DNA from: Chloroflexi bacterium HGW-Chloroflexi-2
Lineage (GTDB): Bacteria > Chloroflexota > Anaerolineae > Anaerolineales > Anaerolineaceae
DNA length: 57,994 bases
Direction: 5' to 3'
Assembly: GCA_002840735.1 (NCBI GenBank)
Contig: PHBY01000017.1
Span: forward strand, 1 to 57,994
The translations under genes were made by a program, and so were the position numbers. The stretch's first letter is position 1. Each line of letters begins with the position of its first letter. Below the pieces are notes generated by a model. That model was not told the DNA's origin, searched no databases, and saw only the letters and a program-made list of their open reading frames with translations. Positions 22,671-30,250 of the stretch are shown in pieces.

Positions 22671-24287
22671 ATGTCAGATAATTTAGTTTCTCGACGAGGT
22701 TTTTTGAAGAAGACCGCGATGTTAGGCGCAGGTTTAGCTGCAACTGGTGGTATAGTCGCTTGTTCACCTGCTGGGGCAACCACTGCTGGTGAAGATATCA
22801 AATGGGACAAAGAAGTTGATGTTGTTGTGGTCGGCTCTGGAACCGTTGTGATGGCTGCATTGGCAGCGAAAGATGCCGGTGCGGAATCAGTATTAATACT
22901 GGAAAAAAACATTGCATTCGGTGGTACCTCAGCGCTTTCAGGTGGAATATTTTGGATTCCATTAAATTATCCAAAAAAAGCAGAAGGATTCGAGGACAAT
23001 CGCGAAGATGCTTACAAATATGTGAAGAAAACCTCCGCTGGTCAGTCAACTGATGAGCTAATTAATACTTATATTGATAATGCCAATTCTATGCTTGAAT
23101 GGTCTCGGGACAAATTTGGTTACAACTGGGCACCAGTTAACTTTATAGGAGATTATTATGAAGTAGACGGCGTCAGACCACTGGGACGGTCTGTAGGTTT
23201 ATCTACACCGGATGGAGCAATCACAAACGGGGGAGGTGCCTGGCAAATATTCCGTGAAACAGTCGACGGATTAGGTATTGAAGTAATGCTGGAAACAGCT
23301 GGTAAAGAATTAGTAACCAATGCAAATGGTGAAGTGATTGGAATTAAAGCAGAGGGTATCGACGGCCCTCTGGCGATCAAAGCCAAGAAAGGTGTAATCC
23401 TGGGTACTGGTGGATTTGATTTCAATCATGAAATGACAACTGCTTTCTTACGAGGTCCAATTTATGTAAGTAATTCAGTTCGAACAAATACTGGAGATGG
23501 ACATTTGATGGGAATGGCATTAGGAGCCGATCTTCGTAATATGAATTCCTGCTGGGGTCTTCCATCTATGCCACTTGATAAAGAAAAATTATTAGGGGAA
23601 GTAGACTGGGCATCGTACCGTGGAAAACCAGGCGCCATTGTAGTGAATAAATATGGTGAGCGAATTGGTAACGAAGCTTCTGCATACCATGTCTTCAACC
23701 GTGCTTTCTGGAACTGGGATACCGGGAAATTTGAATGGCGCAACACTCCATCATTCTGGATCGTAGACTCTTCTTATGCTGAACGCTATTTCTTCCCTGG
23801 AAGTGGAAATCAAGCTGGTGTTATTCCGGATTGGATGACACAGGCTGACACACTCGAAGAATTATGTGATAAATTAGGCATCGATATTGAAGGATTTAAT
23901 GCTACTTTGGAAGTATTCAATCCGAATGCTGAAAATGGTGTTGATCCACTTTTCCATCGTGGAGAATATCAATTCGATCTGAATATGTTCGGCGATAAAA
24001 TCCGTACAGATCTGAAAAATACTTGTTTGGCTCCGATTTCACAAGGACCCTTCTATGGTTGTGAATATGTTCCAGGCACATGCGGCACCAATGGTGGTCT
24101 GCGGATCAATGCAAATGCTCAAGTAATTGATGTAAAAGGCAATCCTATTCCACGCCTGTACGCAGTTGGGAATACTTCCGGGTCTGTATTTGGTGATTCC
24201 TATCCGGGTGCTGGTGGTACTTTAGGCGCAGGTGGTGTGTTTGGCATGTTAGCCGGCCGCCATGCTGTCAGTTTGGAATCAGTCTAG
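22671..24287 (+). CDS. Tat-exported, lipid-anchored FAD flavoprotein (fumarate reductase/KstD-like)
   Basis: The 538-residue enzyme starts with a twin-arginine signal (SRRGFLKKTAMLGAGLAA) that ends in an IVAC lipobox, so it should be folded with FAD, exported and lipidated at Cys31. The FAD_binding_2 fold is shown by VVVVGSG near residue 50, a GGTSALSGGIFWIP segment and the C-terminal GNTSGSVFGDSYPGAGGTLGAG box. The last two, with GPFYGCEYVPGTCGTNGG, recall 3-ketosteroid dehydrogenases and periplasmic enoate reductases (fumarate, urocanate, methacrylate). The NapC-type cytochrome that follows would feed it quinol electrons, so it is predicted to be a terminal reductase for an unsaturated organic acid or ketone. 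Substrate unknown. AAGGAAA precedes the ATG. Confidence 0.85.
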   Translation: MSDNLVSRRGFLKKTAMLGAGLAATGGIVACSPAGATTAGEDIKWDKEVDVVVVGSGTVVMAALAAKDAGAESVLILEKNIAFGGTSALSGGIFWIPLNYPKKAEGFEDNREDAYKYVKKTSAGQSTDELINTYIDNANSMLEWSRDKFGYNWAPVNFIGDYYEVDGVRPLGRSVGLSTPDGAITNGGGAWQIFRETVDGLGIEVMLETAGKELVTNANGEVIGIKAEGIDGPLAIKAKKGVILGTGGFDFNHEMTTAFLRGPIYVSNSVRTNTGDGHLMGMALGADLRNMNSCWGLPSMPLDKEKLLGEVDWASYRGKPGAIVVNKYGERIGNEASAYHVFNRAFWNWDTGKFEWRNTPSFWIVDSSYAERYFFPGSGNQAGVIPDWMTQADTLEELCDKLGIDIEGFNATLEVFNPNAENGVDPLFHRGEYQFDLNMFGDKIRTDLKNTCLAPISQGPFYGCEYVPGTCGTNGGLRINANAQVIDVKGNPIPRLYAVGNTSGSVFGDSYPGAGGTLGAGGVFGMLAGRHAVSLESV

Positions 24288-24367
24288 AACTTTTTCATCA
24301 CTCTTGGGATTGGATACAGGTTTTTTCAATCCCTGGAGACCTCCTTTGAAAAATGGAAAGGATTTCA

Positions 24368-24997
24368 ATGTTCAAAAGGAAAACGAAAACTGAAGCAGTT
24401 GAACAGGAAAACCAACCCCAAAAAAAGAAAGAGTTCAACTGGTTTAAATTCAGTGTTATTGCTAATATTATTCTAATTGCTGGTGTTGGTATAGCCCTGG
24501 CATCTATGGCAATCCTGCATCAAAGCGATACCAATCCACAATTCTGTGCAACCTGCCATAATATGGAGCGGTATGTTGAATCCTATTTGACCAGCAACAC
24601 CATGGACAATGTTCATGCACAGGCGAATGTTCAATGTAAGCAATGCCACAGCGATTATGACATCCCGGCTGAAATCAAATCGGGTATTACTTTCATAATC
24701 GGTAATTATGATAAAGAAATGCCACAAAGAAGATTTGGTGATGAAATCTGTACCCAATGTCATATCAGTATGGAATATATGGCACAACAGACGGATTATT
24801 TGCGCCGTAATCCGCATGCCAGCCATTGGCCGGATCTGAAATGCCGTTCCTGCCACATCTCACATGGCGAACAGATTGATTACTGCAGTGAATGCCATGA
24901 CAATGGTGGACAACGAATGACCGGTCAGGAATATTTTCCGCGTGTCGATAATCCATACGATAAATATCCGGATACTTCACAAGGACCAAGCCATTAA
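24368..24997 (+). CDS. Pentaheme NapC/NirT-type membrane cytochrome c
   Basis: The 209-residue protein has one N-terminal membrane anchor (about residues 27-48) and five CXXCH haem sites: CATCH, CKQCH, CTQCH, CRSCH and CSECH. The NapC/NrfH/CymA family oxidises membrane quinol and passes electrons to exported reductases. Four haems are usual, so a fifth C-terminal haem is an addition. I prefer the ATG at 24368, which has AAAGGA 7 nt upstream, over an ATG 15 nt earlier that lacks a well-spaced site. It follows the flavoprotein gene by 80 nt in what looks like one operon and is its probable electron donor. Confidence 0.9.
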   Translation: MFKRKTKTEAVEQENQPQKKKEFNWFKFSVIANIILIAGVGIALASMAILHQSDTNPQFCATCHNMERYVESYLTSNTMDNVHAQANVQCKQCHSDYDIPAEIKSGITFIIGNYDKEMPQRRFGDEICTQCHISMEYMAQQTDYLRRNPHASHWPDLKCRSCHISHGEQIDYCSECHDNGGQRMTGQEYFPRVDNPYDKYPDTSQGPSH

Positions 24998-25885: not shown

Positions 25886-27625
25886 TTATGGGGTAACAAC
25901 CGGTAATTCAGCTGCTTCCCAACCTACGTAACCACCACTCATGCTGAGAACATCACTATAACCATTCAAACGTAAGGCAATGGTGTAGATCAAACTGCGA
26001 ATTCCACTCCTGCAGTAGACAATATTCTTGGTGTTGGGGTCAATTTCACCCATGCGTGCGATCACTTCTTCCAGGGGGATATTGACAGCTGGATCAATGT
26101 AGCCAGCTTCATATTCATCAGCGCGACGGGCGTCGATCAGTACAAATTCTTCAGTGTTGACTAACATTTCATTAACATCAACATTTTTAATACTTGCCCA
26201 ACCTTCGGGAGGATTGTTGGCGAAGTCTTTCACAGCTGCATAGAGTTTTTCATCAAAGATGATTGGGGTGCTGATTTCTTCAGCAGGAGCCAAACCTTCT
26301 TCCACACCCAATTCAGCTTTCAACCAACCATCCATACCGGCGGTCATGTTGCGCACATTGGTGTAGCCCAATAAATTAAGGATTGTCCAGGCGAAGGTGG
26401 AGCGGGTACCGCTCTTGCAATAGACCACGATGGGAGCATCAAGATCCGCTGGTAATAAAGCAGGATTATCAACAAGAGTTTTTACAGGGATATTGACTGC
26501 ACCTGGGATATGACCATTTTCTTCCAATTCAGAAGGTTCACGCACATCAATCACGAACAGATCAGGATTCTCAATCAGTTCTGTATTGAGTGCATCCGGG
26601 GCCATGGTGCCATAGCCTTTATCCTGTCCATTATTGGCAATAATACCGGCAAAAATTGCTTGGAAATCAGGTGCTGCACCAACAACAGGAAGCTCCTCAG
26701 CCTGCCAGCCAAGGTACCCACCACTCATATTGAGCGCATCGTATCCAAGCATGCGTAATGCCAGTGTTCCGATCATACCACGCACACCACTGCGACAGTA
26801 GACGATAATCTCGGCATCTTGATCGATTTCATCTAATCGGCTCATCATCTCTTCTAATGGAATATTGACTGCGCCATCGACATAACCTGCTTCATATTCA
26901 TCTGCGCGACGATTGTCAATCAACAAGAATTCTTCGCCATTGATCATCTTTTCATTGACATCTACTGGTTTGATGGTTGCCCAACCTTCAGGTGCATTGT
27001 TAGCAAAGTCTTTGACAGCCATATATTGGGCTTCATTTGCAATGATCGCAGTACTGATTTCTTCAGCGGGTGCGAGACCCTCTTCGGATGGCAATTGAGC
27101 AGCTAACCAACCATCGAAGCCTGCAGCCATGTTACGTACATTGGTATAACCCAATGCACTCAGGATTGTCCAAGCCCAGGTGGAGCGCGTTCCACTTTTG
27201 CAGTAAACAACTATCGGTGCATCGAGATCAGCTGGTAATAAAGCTGGGTTATCGGCCAGGGTTTTAACAGGGATGTTCACTGCACCAGGCACATGACCAT
27301 TTCCTTCTAACTCAGATGGTTCACGAACATCAATCACTAACAAATCGGGATTCTCGATCAGTTCAGTATTGACGGTGTCTGCAGCTACTGTGCCATAGGC
27401 TTGTTCTTTACCATTGTTGGCAATGACTTCGGTAAAAATTGCCTGAAAATCAGGAGCTTCAACAACGACCGGAACTTCCGTTGGTACAGCAGTTGGCTCT
27501 TCAACGACCACCACGGCTGTTGGTTCTTCAACAACGGGTTCTGGTGTTGGTGCTGGGGCGCAGGCTCCCAACAACATCGCAAACATTACGAGTAACATCA
27601 GGGGTAAATAAATTTTTTTTGACAT
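25886..27625 (-). CDS. Lipoprotein with four rhodanese domains
   Basis: The 579-residue extracytoplasmic protein has a signal sequence ending in LLGAC (lipidated Cys22), then a Pro/Val/Glu-rich linker and four rhodanese domains. The active-site cysteines are in VVYCKSGTRS (Cys142), IVYCRSGVRG (Cys277), VVYCKSGTRS (Cys403) and IVYCRSGIRS (Cys538). All four keep a CxSGxR-type loop, so all could carry persulfide or bind selenium or tellurium oxyanion products. Spacing is 135/126/135, showing duplication of a two-domain unit of 261 codons. It lies 50 nt after an 11-heme cytochrome gene and is probably co-transcribed with it, suggesting sulfur- or selenium-linked electron transfer (inference). Confidence 0.9.
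   Translation of the reverse strand: MSKKIYLPLMLLVMFAMLLGACAPAPTPEPVVEEPTAVVVVEEPTAVPTEVPVVVEAPDFQAIFTEVIANNGKEQAYGTVAADTVNTELIENPDLLVIDVREPSELEGNGHVPGAVNIPVKTLADNPALLPADLDAPIVVYCKSGTRSTWAWTILSALGYTNVRNMAAGFDGWLAAQLPSEEGLAPAEEISTAIIANEAQYMAVKDFANNAPEGWATIKPVDVNEKMINGEEFLLIDNRRADEYEAGYVDGAVNIPLEEMMSRLDEIDQDAEIIVYCRSGVRGMIGTLALRMLGYDALNMSGGYLGWQAEELPVVGAAPDFQAIFAGIIANNGQDKGYGTMAPDALNTELIENPDLFVIDVREPSELEENGHIPGAVNIPVKTLVDNPALLPADLDAPIVVYCKSGTRSTFAWTILNLLGYTNVRNMTAGMDGWLKAELGVEEGLAPAEEISTPIIFDEKLYAAVKDFANNPPEGWASIKNVDVNEMLVNTEEFVLIDARRADEYEAGYIDPAVNIPLEEVIARMGEIDPNTKNIVYCRSGIRSLIYTIALRLNGYSDVLSMSGGYVGWEAAELPVVTP
25890..27460 (-). repeat. Tandem internal duplication within the rhodanese gene
   Basis: The gene consists of two copies of a 783-bp (261-codon) unit, roughly 25890-26675 and 26676-27460. 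Matching active-site cysteines are exactly 261 codons apart (Cys142/Cys403 and Cys277/Cys538). Long stretches are near-identical at the protein level, for example DLDAPIVVYCKSGTRST in both copies, so the duplication is recent or kept by gene conversion. Confidence 0.85.
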
Positions 27626-27675: not shown

Positions 27676-29067
27676 TTAGTTGCCATCTTCTATTGGTTGT
27701 CCCGGAATAAGAGCCGGAACGTTTTCAACAATCACACCCAGATTTGCTTCCAGTTCCTCGGGTTTCACTTTGTCAGCTGTTAAGAAAATCTCCGCATTTC
27801 CATGACAGGAATTACAACTTTCGTTTTGAGGGGTGTTGCGTTGAATGTTATGCGGGGTTGCATATGCCCAGTTAGGGAGCAAATTGAAGTTGGGTAATAA
27901 ATCTTCCCCGTAATAAGCATAACTCCCTGGATCTACAGGAATGTGCCGAACGGTAACATATTCATAAGGTCTGGCTGTGGTTTGACGTGTGTTGCGACCA
28001 ATGAAAAATGTTAAATAGGTAGCAGCTGTTCTGAAGAATGGATTACCGGTCGATTCACTGATGGCTACATGGCAGCTATCGCAACTGGTATAGGTTACGG
28101 AGTGGCATACCTGACAGGAGAGCGTACCCTGATGGATTTGATGCTGTACGATCGTATCGGTCGCTCTTCCAACTTGATCGTGGCAGCTTTCGCAGCTGGG
28201 GCTTTGAGCACCTTCATAGCGGTGATTATTACCTTCGGAATCATGCATGCTGGCGCCATCATGGCAGGCAACACAATTCATGCGGCCTTGACGGAAGTGA
28301 ACATCACCCGGAATGCCTTCATTTTTGCCCATGTATTCATTGCCAACACGGGAACCATGGCAGGCTGTACAGGTGCGGGTCATGGGTGGTGTCTTAACAT
28401 ATTCATGTCCATTTAGCAAACCGCCGCCGACACTATCAGGTTGGGCAATATGACAATCACCACAGGTGGTATGGCAGGATTGACAATGATTACCGAACAT
28501 TTCGTTTAAGGCTTCATGGTTTTCAGGTAAACTGCGTGAATACATTGTCTGGAAGTATCCTGCCTGACTTACATGTAAACTATCGGCGCTGGTAGCAACA
28601 ATTTCATTATGACAGTTACCACAGGTTCTCTGTGGATCAGCATCGGGTGCGGGAATCATACCATTGTGTGCAGCTTCTTTATCTAACGTGGAGGAATCTC
28701 CGGCATGACAGGCTACGCAGGTGGTTATTCCATGAACATTGGTGAAAAACCCATTACTGATTATTACTTTTTCCCAAGGCTCCAACGGAGCCACAGAGCC
28801 ACCTCAGCCAACCCCTTCGGATTCGGCTCCATGCGCATCTTCTTCTTCGAGTACAGAATTATCAATCAGCATCTGTTTGTCCGTATGGCATACCACACAA
28901 TTATCAACCGGAGGTTCAAGTGACACAGGAACAATAGTTGCTGGTGTTGCCTGACTTATGGCTACTTCAGTTTCATCTATAACCGAAGTAGTTGTGTTCT
29001 TTGCTGTACAGGCACCCAGTAAAAGCATGGATACACACAGAATTAATAAAGTTATGTATTTTTTCAT
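27676..29067 (-). CDS. 11-heme lipoprotein cytochrome c with one in-frame UGA (candidate selenoprotein)
   Basis: One continuous frame of 464 codons is interrupted only by TGA at codon 88 (28804-28806). Before it lie a lipoprotein signal (LLLGAC, Cys20) and haem site CVVCH. After it, in the same frame, come ten more sites: CVACH, CGNCH, CQSCH, CGDCH, CTACH, CVACH, CESCH, CQVCH, CDSCH and CNSCH. AAGGA 7 nt before the ATG at 29067 fixes the start. The downstream part alone could begin only at a GTG without ribosome site or signal sequence, so its haems could not be attached outside the membrane. The UGA is therefore either read through, plausibly as selenocysteine because a SECIS-like hairpin follows, or is a recent nonsense mutation. 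It is the first gene of an operon with the rhodanese lipoprotein. Confidence 0.8.
28778..28806 (-). promoter_or_regulatory. UGA codon plus bacterial SECIS-like hairpin
   Basis: Read on the minus strand, TGA is followed by 11 nt and then GGCTCC-GTT-GGAGCC, a perfect 6-bp stem with a 3-nt loop (28778-28792). A weak lower stem (TCTG/TGGG, across a T-T mismatch) can extend it. The loop starts 17 nt after the UGA and its first base is G. Known consensus for bacterial SECIS elements: loop about 16-37 nt from the UGA, 3-14 nt in size, with G among its first two bases. The match is geometric, not proof of function. Confidence 0.55.
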
Positions 29068-29274: not shown

Positions 29275-29323
29275 TCTTAATACAAATATGATAAAATCAA
29301 GCTTATTTGTCAGGAGACTTGAT

Positions 29324-30250
29324 ATGTTAGATACACATCAATTGCGAGTTTTTCTGGCTGCAGCTGAAACGCTTAATTTTTCTCAGGCAGCCAAGCGTTT
29401 ACATATGTCCCAGCCCAGTGTGACCCAACATATCCATAACCTTGAATCACATTTTGCTATGCAGTTATTTGTGAGAGCTGGAAGAAAGTTAGCATTAACA
29501 GAAGCGGGTGTTACCCTTCTGCCGATGGCAAGGGATCTGGTTTTATCAGCCATTCGCGCTGATGAAATGATGGATACATTAAAACAGGAAATTCACGGAC
29601 AATTATGGATTGCCTGCACAACGACTCCAGGGAAATATATCCTGCCTACATTAATGGCTGACTTCTTAAAGAGATATCCAAAAGTAGAAGCTTCCATTTC
29701 TGTCAGTAACAGGAATGATGCCATGCGCTTATTGAATGAAGGTAAAGCGCAGATCATGGTTTCGAGTGTTTTTAATTACCATCCAGATATTGAATTTCAT
29801 AAATTTATTTCAGAACCTCTGGTTTTGATCGTTCCCAAAAATCATCCCTGGACCCGCAGAGAAAGCATTAAACTGGATGAATTACGCAAAGCAAATATGA
29901 TCCTGCGGGAACCTTCAGCAGGTTCGTACATGGTGCTGCGCGATGGGTTGGCCCAAAAGGGATTTGATATCAGTGATCTGCACAAGATCTTAACCCTGGG
30001 TAATTCTGAAGCAATTGCTTTTGCAGTACAGGAAGGCATTGGCGTTGGTTTTGTGTCGATGCTGGTGGCACAAAGAATAGTCAAAGAACAGGTAGCAATC
30101 GTTAAAATTGATGACCTCGAACTATCACAGGATATTTATATAGGGCAACATCGCCGGCTTCCTTCCACCTCAGCCCAGGTCGCGTTCTGGAAAATGGCGA
30201 CTGACACTCAGAGTGAATCTTTATTAAAAATCCTGTCCTACCTGTCATAG
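29324..30250 (+). CDS. LysR-family transcriptional regulator
   Basis: The 308-residue regulator has an N-terminal winged helix LDTHQLRVFLAAAETLNFSQ then AKRLHMSQPSVTQHI, and a LysR substrate-binding domain with the hinge GQLWIACTTTPGKYILP. The effector domain resembles CysB/CbbR/CysL-like regulators, often tied to sulfur or carbon metabolism; the effector cannot be named. I chose the ATG at 29324 because AGGAG stands 7 nt upstream; an ATG at 29288 adds 12 residues without support. It is divergent from the cytochrome-rhodanese unit across 256 bp, which is the usual arrangement for a LysR activator and its target. Confidence 0.9.
   Translation: MLDTHQLRVFLAAAETLNFSQAAKRLHMSQPSVTQHIHNLESHFAMQLFVRAGRKLALTEAGVTLLPMARDLVLSAIRADEMMDTLKQEIHGQLWIACTTTPGKYILPTLMADFLKRYPKVEASISVSNRNDAMRLLNEGKAQIMVSSVFNYHPDIEFHKFISEPLVLIVPKNHPWTRRESIKLDELRKANMILREPSAGSYMVLRDGLAQKGFDISDLHKILTLGNSEAIAFAVQEGIGVGFVSMLVAQRIVKEQVAIVKIDDLELSQDIYIGQHRRLPSTSAQVAFWKMATDTQSESLLKILSYLS

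Follow-up and report, generated by a model that had tools for sequence, protein, structure and literature searches.

Organization of the Cytochrome Locus

The window examined here is the whole stretch of 57,994 nt from positions 1 to 57,994 of contig PHBY01000017.1 (forward strand) in assembly GCA_002840735.1 of Chloroflexi bacterium HGW-Chloroflexi-2. The reverse strand includes a frame (29067-27676) of 464 codons, counting the stop codon, that is broken by a single internal TGA at codon 88 (28806-28804) and that specifies a cytochrome with 11 CXXCH motifs when the UGA is read as selenocysteine (Sec; Table 1). One motif, beginning at residue 57, precedes the UGA and ten follow it, starting at residues 117, 149, 195, 202, 233, 265, 292, 318, 329, and 418. 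Both the frame with its lone TGA and the division of the motifs are as reported in the preliminary description of this DNA. The signal-like N-terminus ends in the lipobox-like sequence LLGAC with Cys-20, from which the cytochrome is probably a lipoprotein. The active-site-like cysteine loops of the adjacent rhodanese protein are CKSGTRS, CRSGVRG, CKSGTRS, and CRSGIRS. Elsewhere in the window, a frame at 22671-24997 (+) encodes a FAD flavoprotein with a signal-like start that adjoins a NapC/NrfH-like multihaem cytochrome. This pair matched Cgr1 weakly (45.6 bits vs. a cut-off of 340) and possibly constitutes another exported reductase pair. A plasmid search produced no match.

Table 1. Features of the cytochrome locus, with positions in the window.
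Feature	Position	Strand	Basis or remark
Predicted Sec-containing undecahaem cytochrome gene	27676..29067	-	463 aa with UGA read as Sec; translation and relatives
UGA codon 88, read as selenocysteine	28804..28806	-	Same alignment column in 78/81 rows
First haem motif, CVVCH, residues 57-61	28885..28899	-	Sole CXXCH upstream of Sec
11-nt spacer from UGA to hairpin, GGTGGCTCTGT	28793..28803	-	Equal length in all 78 UGA rows; gap-free alignment
SECIS apical hairpin, GGCTCC-GTT-GGAGCC	28778..28792	-	Fold; conservation; 99.8% of cells paired
Partner gene, four rhodanese domains, probable lipoprotein	25886..27625	-	Pfam PF00581, four stretches
Divergent LysR-type regulator	29288..30250	+	Pfam PF00126/PF03466

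A scan of genome contigs identified 310 relatives of the cytochrome, the best 80 of which were kept and aligned with the window to give 81 rows. The titles of these best 80 of 310 relatives denote Chloroflexota lineages, mostly Anaerolineae. Two UGA-bearing contigs have strain titles, Thermanaerothrix daxensis GNS-1 (L036) and Bellilinea caldifistulae GOMI-1 (L048), which makes biochemical tests feasible; the other 78 titles specify MAGs. The sequence GUGGEVAPLEPWEK, with Sec as U, is common to the cytochromes of these two strains. Neighboring genes were clustered and the five commonest clusters were identified: rhodanese, LysR, multihaem cytochrome, Fe-S, and NrfD, the last three by Pfam analysis of one representative each. 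In 69 of the 81 loci (best 80 of 310 relatives and the window), a member of the LysR cluster is no more than 6 kb from the cytochrome, and the 70 LysR copies comprise 46 that are upstream and divergent and 24 that are downstream. A multihaem cytochrome, a 4Fe-4S protein, and an NrfD-type membrane protein all are present within 6 kb in 28 of the 81 loci. Sets of this type are a usual route for electrons from menaquinol. The number of CXXCH motifs per row varies from 11 to 14 across the 81 rows (best 80 of 310 relatives and the window). The frames of 20 loci with 13 motifs (L042, L043, and L045 among others) extend 51-61 codons past the match with the window protein, and in 17 of these 20 the LysR gene is downstream and not divergent.

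Geometry of the Hairpin Downstream of the UGA Codon

The hairpin begins 11 nt past the TGA and its GTT loop begins 17 nt past it, at 28792-28778, with the perfect GGCTCC/GGAGCC stem that had been noted. Four constraints are given for bacterial SECIS elements in PMC13188914: a 3-nt loop that starts with G, a 6-bp stem, 17-nt spacing, and a minimum free energy below -7.5. The earlier proposal that the hairpin fits published geometry was borne out by a GUU loop, 6 bp, 17 nt, and -9.1 kcal/mol, respectively, the energy being that of a 16-mer that includes one flanking base (z -4.43). Larger pieces produced z values of -1.36 (37 nt) and -0.67 (66-nt context), the latter indicating that the surrounding sequence is not unusually stable. 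The exact combination of UGA and hairpin was observed once in the window and was expected 0.275 times per window, based on 40 random sequences with the same dinucleotide make-up and both strands. Thus, the geometry on which the preliminary case was founded is present, but is not significant by itself: with a chance expectation of ~0.3 per window a single sequence is suggestive only, and it is conservation among relatives that carries the case for Sec.

Conservation of the UGA Codon and the Hairpin

The column that corresponds to codon 88 contains UGA in 78 of the 81 rows (best 80 of 310 relatives and the window), Trp in two (L055 and L098), Leu in one (L034), and Cys in none. It had been suggested that homologs with UGA or Cys at this site and with a retained hairpin would support Sec; UGA and the hairpin indeed are conserved, but the Cys version did not appear. 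According to PMC13188914, Cys homologs exist for nearly all selenoproteins, and the missing Cys counterpart is unusual in this regard.

Searches beyond the alignment gave concordant results. A family-level protein search of 147 genomes matched 18, of which four matches were weak and partial and 14 were full-length, including that in the genome of the window; TGA was at the same place in 13 of the 14. This set overlaps with the 81-row alignment. In a phylum-wide sample of 400 genomes, 13 matched at E ≤ 1e-30, again including the genome of the window, and 12 of the 13 possess TGA at the site. The exception is a distant relative (L128; G165:C30) without TGA, which has 13 CXXCH motifs and is devoid of the entire Sec-bearing loop. 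Comparison with this protein suggests that the loop may be a later addition to a multihaem scaffold of older origin, and such a history may be why no Cys version was found. Of 400 genomes from the order, 73 contain a single copy of the 29-letter pattern TGAGGNGGNNNNNTGGCTCCGTTGGAGCC, revealing that the family is widespread, and the reversed control of the pattern was absent among the matches listed for these 400 genomes.

The hairpin is identical letter for letter in 74 of the 78 UGA rows (best 80 of 310 relatives and the window). The variants comprise a two-sided change to GCCTCC-GTT-GGAGGC in L093 and L103, a G-U pair in L080, and an A-C mismatch in L107. The two-sided change also alters the protein (Ala to Pro and Pro to Ala), and counts as one event because L093 and L103 are sisters on the tree. 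The gap-free hairpin alignment and the counts of pairs omit the three UGA-less rows. Pairing holds for 99.8% of cells in the named structure, and the covariation score was reached by none of 500 shuffles; the number of pairs with two-sided change was reached by 15 of 500. Wherever the residue is retained, the codons of the hairpin are invariant in the UGA rows: GCT for Ala (76/76), CCG for Pro (78/78), TTG for Leu (78/78), and GAG for Glu (78/78). The codon whose last base opens the stem is GTG in 76 of 77 instances of Val. Outside the hairpin, the top codon uniformity in conserved columns is 0.897 and fourfold-degenerate columns average 0.47. Among distant copies, L126 and L129 have altered yet paired stems with the GTT loop retained; the hairpin that accompanies the UGA of L125 is weaker and altered, and deviates from the exact pattern.

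These patterns bear on two explanations that do not invoke Sec. At first sight, a lone in-frame stop in one draft contig could be taken for decay of the gene by nonsense mutation or frameshift, or for a sequencing error. The retention of UGA by 78 of 81 rows, the two named strains among them, the conservation of the part of the protein downstream of the UGA, and the invariance of its haem motifs rule out a pseudogene, frameshift, or sequencing error, and leave this explanation a negligible probability. Reassignment of UGA also was rejected: as was claimed previously, UGA is an ordinary stop codon in the window, where TGA ends nine of the 38 stop-to-stop frames of at least 200 codons on both strands, these being open frames and not proven genes.

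Selenocysteine Machinery of the Host Genome

The preliminary description proposed a search of the same genome for selA, selB, selC, and selD. Matches that exceed the cut-offs were detected for all four: selA (459 bits), selB (349.7 bits), selD (346.7 bits), and tRNA-Sec with a tca anticodon (69.9 bits). The selD gene (L136; C7:53947-54882) itself has an in-frame TGA in the context SNCAG-U-ASK, which we take to be read as Sec at the usual catalytic position; 27 nt past this TGA, the sequence TCGCAA-GTT-TTGCGA provides a perfect stem of 6 bp, again capped by a GUU loop. On this basis SelD of this genome appears to be a selenoprotein. As five PF04879 (formate dehydrogenase) matches in the genome have no internal stop, SelD was used as the independent selenoprotein control.

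Fifty of the 80 genomes with a named locus were tested for selA, which was present in 49, including the three with a UGA-less cytochrome. The match in the L077 genome covers only 41 positions where a contig ends (25.2 bits), and no selA match was found in the L037 MAG. A genome of the same genus that lacks a cytochrome match also carries selA. The presence of selA alongside all three UGA-less copies led us to reject loss of the Sec machinery as the cause of UGA loss, which thus was not forced. On the protein tree the losses in L055, L098, and L034 are three separate changes. The L055 copy differs from that of its sister, L037, by an apparent 3-nt in-frame difference at the site. Its hairpin is retained but altered on both sides of the stem (GGCTGC-GTT-GCAGCC), as though normal evolution of the SECIS element had continued until the UGA was lost recently.

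Might the UGA instead be read as Trp by a near-cognate tRNA-Trp or a suppressor, with the hairpin merely stimulating readthrough? Two of the three UGA-less copies, L055 and L098, carry TGG at the site, as this explanation would predict. However, a need for Trp would favor TGG in many copies and UGA is retained in 78 of 81; the substitution in L055 relative to L037 is not a plain A-to-G change; the hairpin satisfies the four SECIS constraints outlined above; and the genome possesses the full Sec machinery together with a UGA-containing selD with the same loop. Readthrough as Trp is therefore highly improbable. The Sec reading of the preliminary description is upheld by the conserved UGA and hairpin and by the presence of selA, selB, selD, and tRNA-Sec, and the comparative evidence makes it close to certain that UGA 88 is decoded as selenocysteine.

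Association of the Cytochrome with a Multi-Rhodanese Protein

A rhodanese gene follows that for the cytochrome in 73 of the 81 loci (best 80 of 310 relatives and the window) by neighbor clustering, and four CxxGxR-type motifs are present in 64 of the 73 cluster members. Searches with tblastn likewise produced rhodanese hits of at least 200 bits in 73 loci, starting 8-611 nt past the cytochrome; in three loci beyond those of the clustering (L053, L071, and L099) a long reverse-strand frame is located downstream, yet tblastn detected the rhodanese. For loci with at least 1500 nt of downstream sequence, a rhodanese frame spanning 300 codons or more is present in 72 of 72 with UGA vs. none of two without (Fisher p 0.0004, not corrected for relatedness). 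Seven loci (L034, L051, L069, L079, L089, L105, and L107) were set aside from this comparison because their downstream sequence is shorter than 1500 nt. The 72 include L056, in which the rhodanese is shorter and divergent, and the L032 frame has 326 codons.

The rhodanese gene is reduced to broken remnants in the UGA-less loci L055 and L098, and no trace was discernible in the 933 nt of contig available for L034. None of the three genomes with a UGA-less copy gave a match to the window rhodanese at E ≤ 1e-20; for L034 the genome searched was G143, which has the same sequence on its contig. The rhodanese was matched at this threshold in G144 and in the genome of L037, the sister of L055 that retains both UGA and rhodanese. 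The L105 genome, in which UGA is kept, also lacked a match at E ≤ 1e-20; its contig ends 18 nt past the cytochrome. In a distant copy (L126; G157:C164), rhodanese domains and the Sec cytochrome are joined in one 829-codon frame that reads through the UGA. The start of this frame is cut by the contig end and a 4Fe-4S protein frame follows it. A further Sec copy in this genome (L129; G157:C524) has a Cys residue three positions before Sec (CKGU). Co-retention and fusion, together with co-loss in three MAG copies, point to Sec and the rhodanese serving one reaction, and an obligate partnership between the Sec cytochrome and the rhodanese is likely on these genomic grounds.

Haem-Binding Motifs and Predicted Structure

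Twelve histidines outside the CXXCH motifs are kept in at least 76 of the 81 rows (best 80 of 310 relatives and the window). This number suffices for bis-His ligation of 11 haems; consequently, no haem is marked as catalytic and Sec need not act as a haem ligand. An AF2 model built from 54 sequences has a mean pLDDT of 76.9, with residues 71-90 poor and the Sec loop at about 55, so that the placement of Sec relative to the haems is undefined in the model. Foldseek with the model gave no significant fold match (E 2.0 for 1sp3). When 32 chains were compared by VIA-align, residues 109-456 of the model aligned with 1sp3, the Shewanella oneidensis octahaem cytochrome, with a Z of 9.1 over 267 residues (rmsd 4.6) and the next row at 3.8; Z values of 7-8 are common for models without a clear match. 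The alignment hints that the part of the cytochrome after Sec may adopt an octahaem tetrathionate reductase fold. A sequence search of the PDB returned partial, weak cytochrome matches (best E 5.4e-05).

Cys-ligated haems occur in cytochromes that oxidize sulfur, for example TsdA and SoxA. Sec might similarly be structural or provide a selenolate ligand that tunes one haem of an ordinary electron conduit, with the rhodanese being a separate, co-regulated sulfur scavenger. The location of Sec between haems 1 and 2 is in keeping with such a role. The supply of 12 conserved histidines for 11 haems opposes it, as does the retention of 13 haem motifs in the loopless homolog L128, and a shared chemistry is indicated by the co-loss of the rhodanese and its fusion with the cytochrome. 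Overall, a structural or haem-ligating role is improbable.

Proposed Function of the Cytochrome-Rhodanese Pair

The locus very likely specifies a genuine selenoprotein cytochrome that acts in a pair with the co-encoded rhodanese. In the proposed pathway, the GUU-loop hairpin located 11 nt past UGA 88 would direct the SelA/SelB/SelC/SelD system to decode this codon as Sec. The product would be an undecahaem cytochrome that is exported and probably anchored by lipid, with its Sec predicted from the sequence to occupy a loop rich in Gly (GVG-U-GG) between haems 1 and 2. Its putative partner is the multi-rhodanese protein, whose gene is kept with, lost with, and once fused to that of the cytochrome. 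Thiosulfate, polysulfide, or a related compound may be the source from which persulfides on the rhodanese cysteines gather sulfane sulfur (or selenium), which would be handed to the Sec-88 selenolate as a Se-S(Se) adduct, with the haem chain either supplying or draining the electrons that cleave the adduct. The NrfD, Fe-S, and multihaem cytochrome set found at 28 of 81 loci could connect the haems to menaquinol. On this view, copies that lack UGA would serve simply in electron transfer and would have no need of the rhodanese. That Sec performs chalcogen-transfer redox chemistry of this sort is conceivable, with the chances somewhat below even; a sulfur species would be our first guess for the substrate, and the compounds associated with the Geobacter ext cluster, selenite or tellurite, our second.

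A different account makes Sec mainly a selenium gate: the full-length cytochrome would be produced only when selenium is plentiful, and the substrate would be selenite or tellurite, as has been suggested for the ext cluster of Geobacter. In PMC6148476 and PMC5877670, the Geobacter sulfurreducens extHIJKL cluster encodes both ExtH, a rhodanese-family lipoprotein, and ExtKL, a predicted Sec cytochrome, along with the porin-like protein ExtI, and mutation of extI impairs the reduction of selenite and tellurite. The nearest NCBIfam model to the window LysR protein is the "selenium metabolism-associated LysR" model NF040786 (202.7 bits, below the cut-off of 250), and there are weak matches to models of the ext cluster, ExtM in 12, ExtN in one, and ExtO in one of 54 members. 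These observations favor a gate. Against it, the ExtKL model NF040886 was matched by none of the 54 members (E ≤ 0.001), nor by the window protein (E ≤ 0.01), and none of the five commonest neighbor clusters is a porin. Moreover, a gate alone leaves the decay of the rhodanese upon UGA loss unexplained. A predominantly gating role for Sec is rather unlikely.

Chalcogen transfer, by comparison, would account for this decay if Sec cannot be replaced by Cys or by the cytochrome on its own, in which case the rhodanese gene would erode once Sec is lost. In its fullest form the proposal is of a two-protein module for chalcogen transfer and electron transfer, seen to date in Chloroflexota alone, in which the rhodanese would hand persulfide or perselenide to the loop Sec of a multihaem wire, such that a Se-S intermediate would be coupled directly to extracytoplasmic haem electron transfer. 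We advance the complete module tentatively, and slightly more guardedly than chalcogen chemistry at Sec as such. Co-loss and fusion with the rhodanese furnish a specific, falsifiable idea of the role of Sec in a multihaem cytochrome.

The family has practical implications for annotation. Automatic procedures would probably cut the gene at codon 88, leaving a mono-haem lipoprotein and a decahaem fragment without a signal sequence. Furthermore, as no Cys counterpart was found, searches for Cys/Sec pairs would probably miss the family.

Comparison with Known Systems

The combination of a rhodanese and a Sec cytochrome was not known initially to have been described, a view that is superseded by the precedent of Geobacter extHIJKL (PMC6148476 and PMC5877670). 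The available part of the selenoprotein table in a 2026 review lists ExtKL and the octahaem tetrathionate reductase family as Sec multihaem cytochromes, and the Chloroflexota family was not found in that part of the table. Nor was the family found in the literature searched, which covered titles and the starts of abstracts and few subscription papers, and no NCBIfam model matched the window protein above its cut-off. Thus, Sec in multihaem cytochromes, also near a rhodanese, is known already; what is new is the Chloroflexota family, which we did not find described and which adds to the short list of selenium-containing cytochromes.

The OmcA/MtrC and DmsE decahaem families are exported multihaem electron-transfer proteins, and we know of no Sec in either. 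The window protein scored far below their cut-offs, with partial matches of 29.9 bits to OmcA/MtrC (TIGR03507; cut-off 209.3) and 30.8 bits to DmsE (TIGR03508; cut-off 192.2). The octahaem tetrathionate reductase family (OTR; TIGR04315; 1sp3) has eight haems vs. at least 11 motifs here, the identity is 15%, and its model was matched by two of the 54 members (best E 1.4e-4).

The closest parallel is with ExtKL and ExtH: in both cases a multihaem c-type cytochrome with a predicted Sec is encoded in one cluster with a rhodanese-family lipoprotein. ExtKL is pentahaem, its UGA is situated between the pentahaem part and a small downstream part, and a porin-like protein is encoded in the cluster. The Chloroflexota family instead has 11-14 CXXCH motifs, at least twice as many, and places Sec between haems 1 and 2. 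The partner protein also resembles rhodanese-type selenoproteins, with scores below the cut-offs of both TsoB (NF045694; 110 bits, cut-off 805) and NF041203 (108.6 bits, cut-off 115). In contrast to these two, the rhodanese described here has Cys active-site loops, and Sec resides in the cytochrome.
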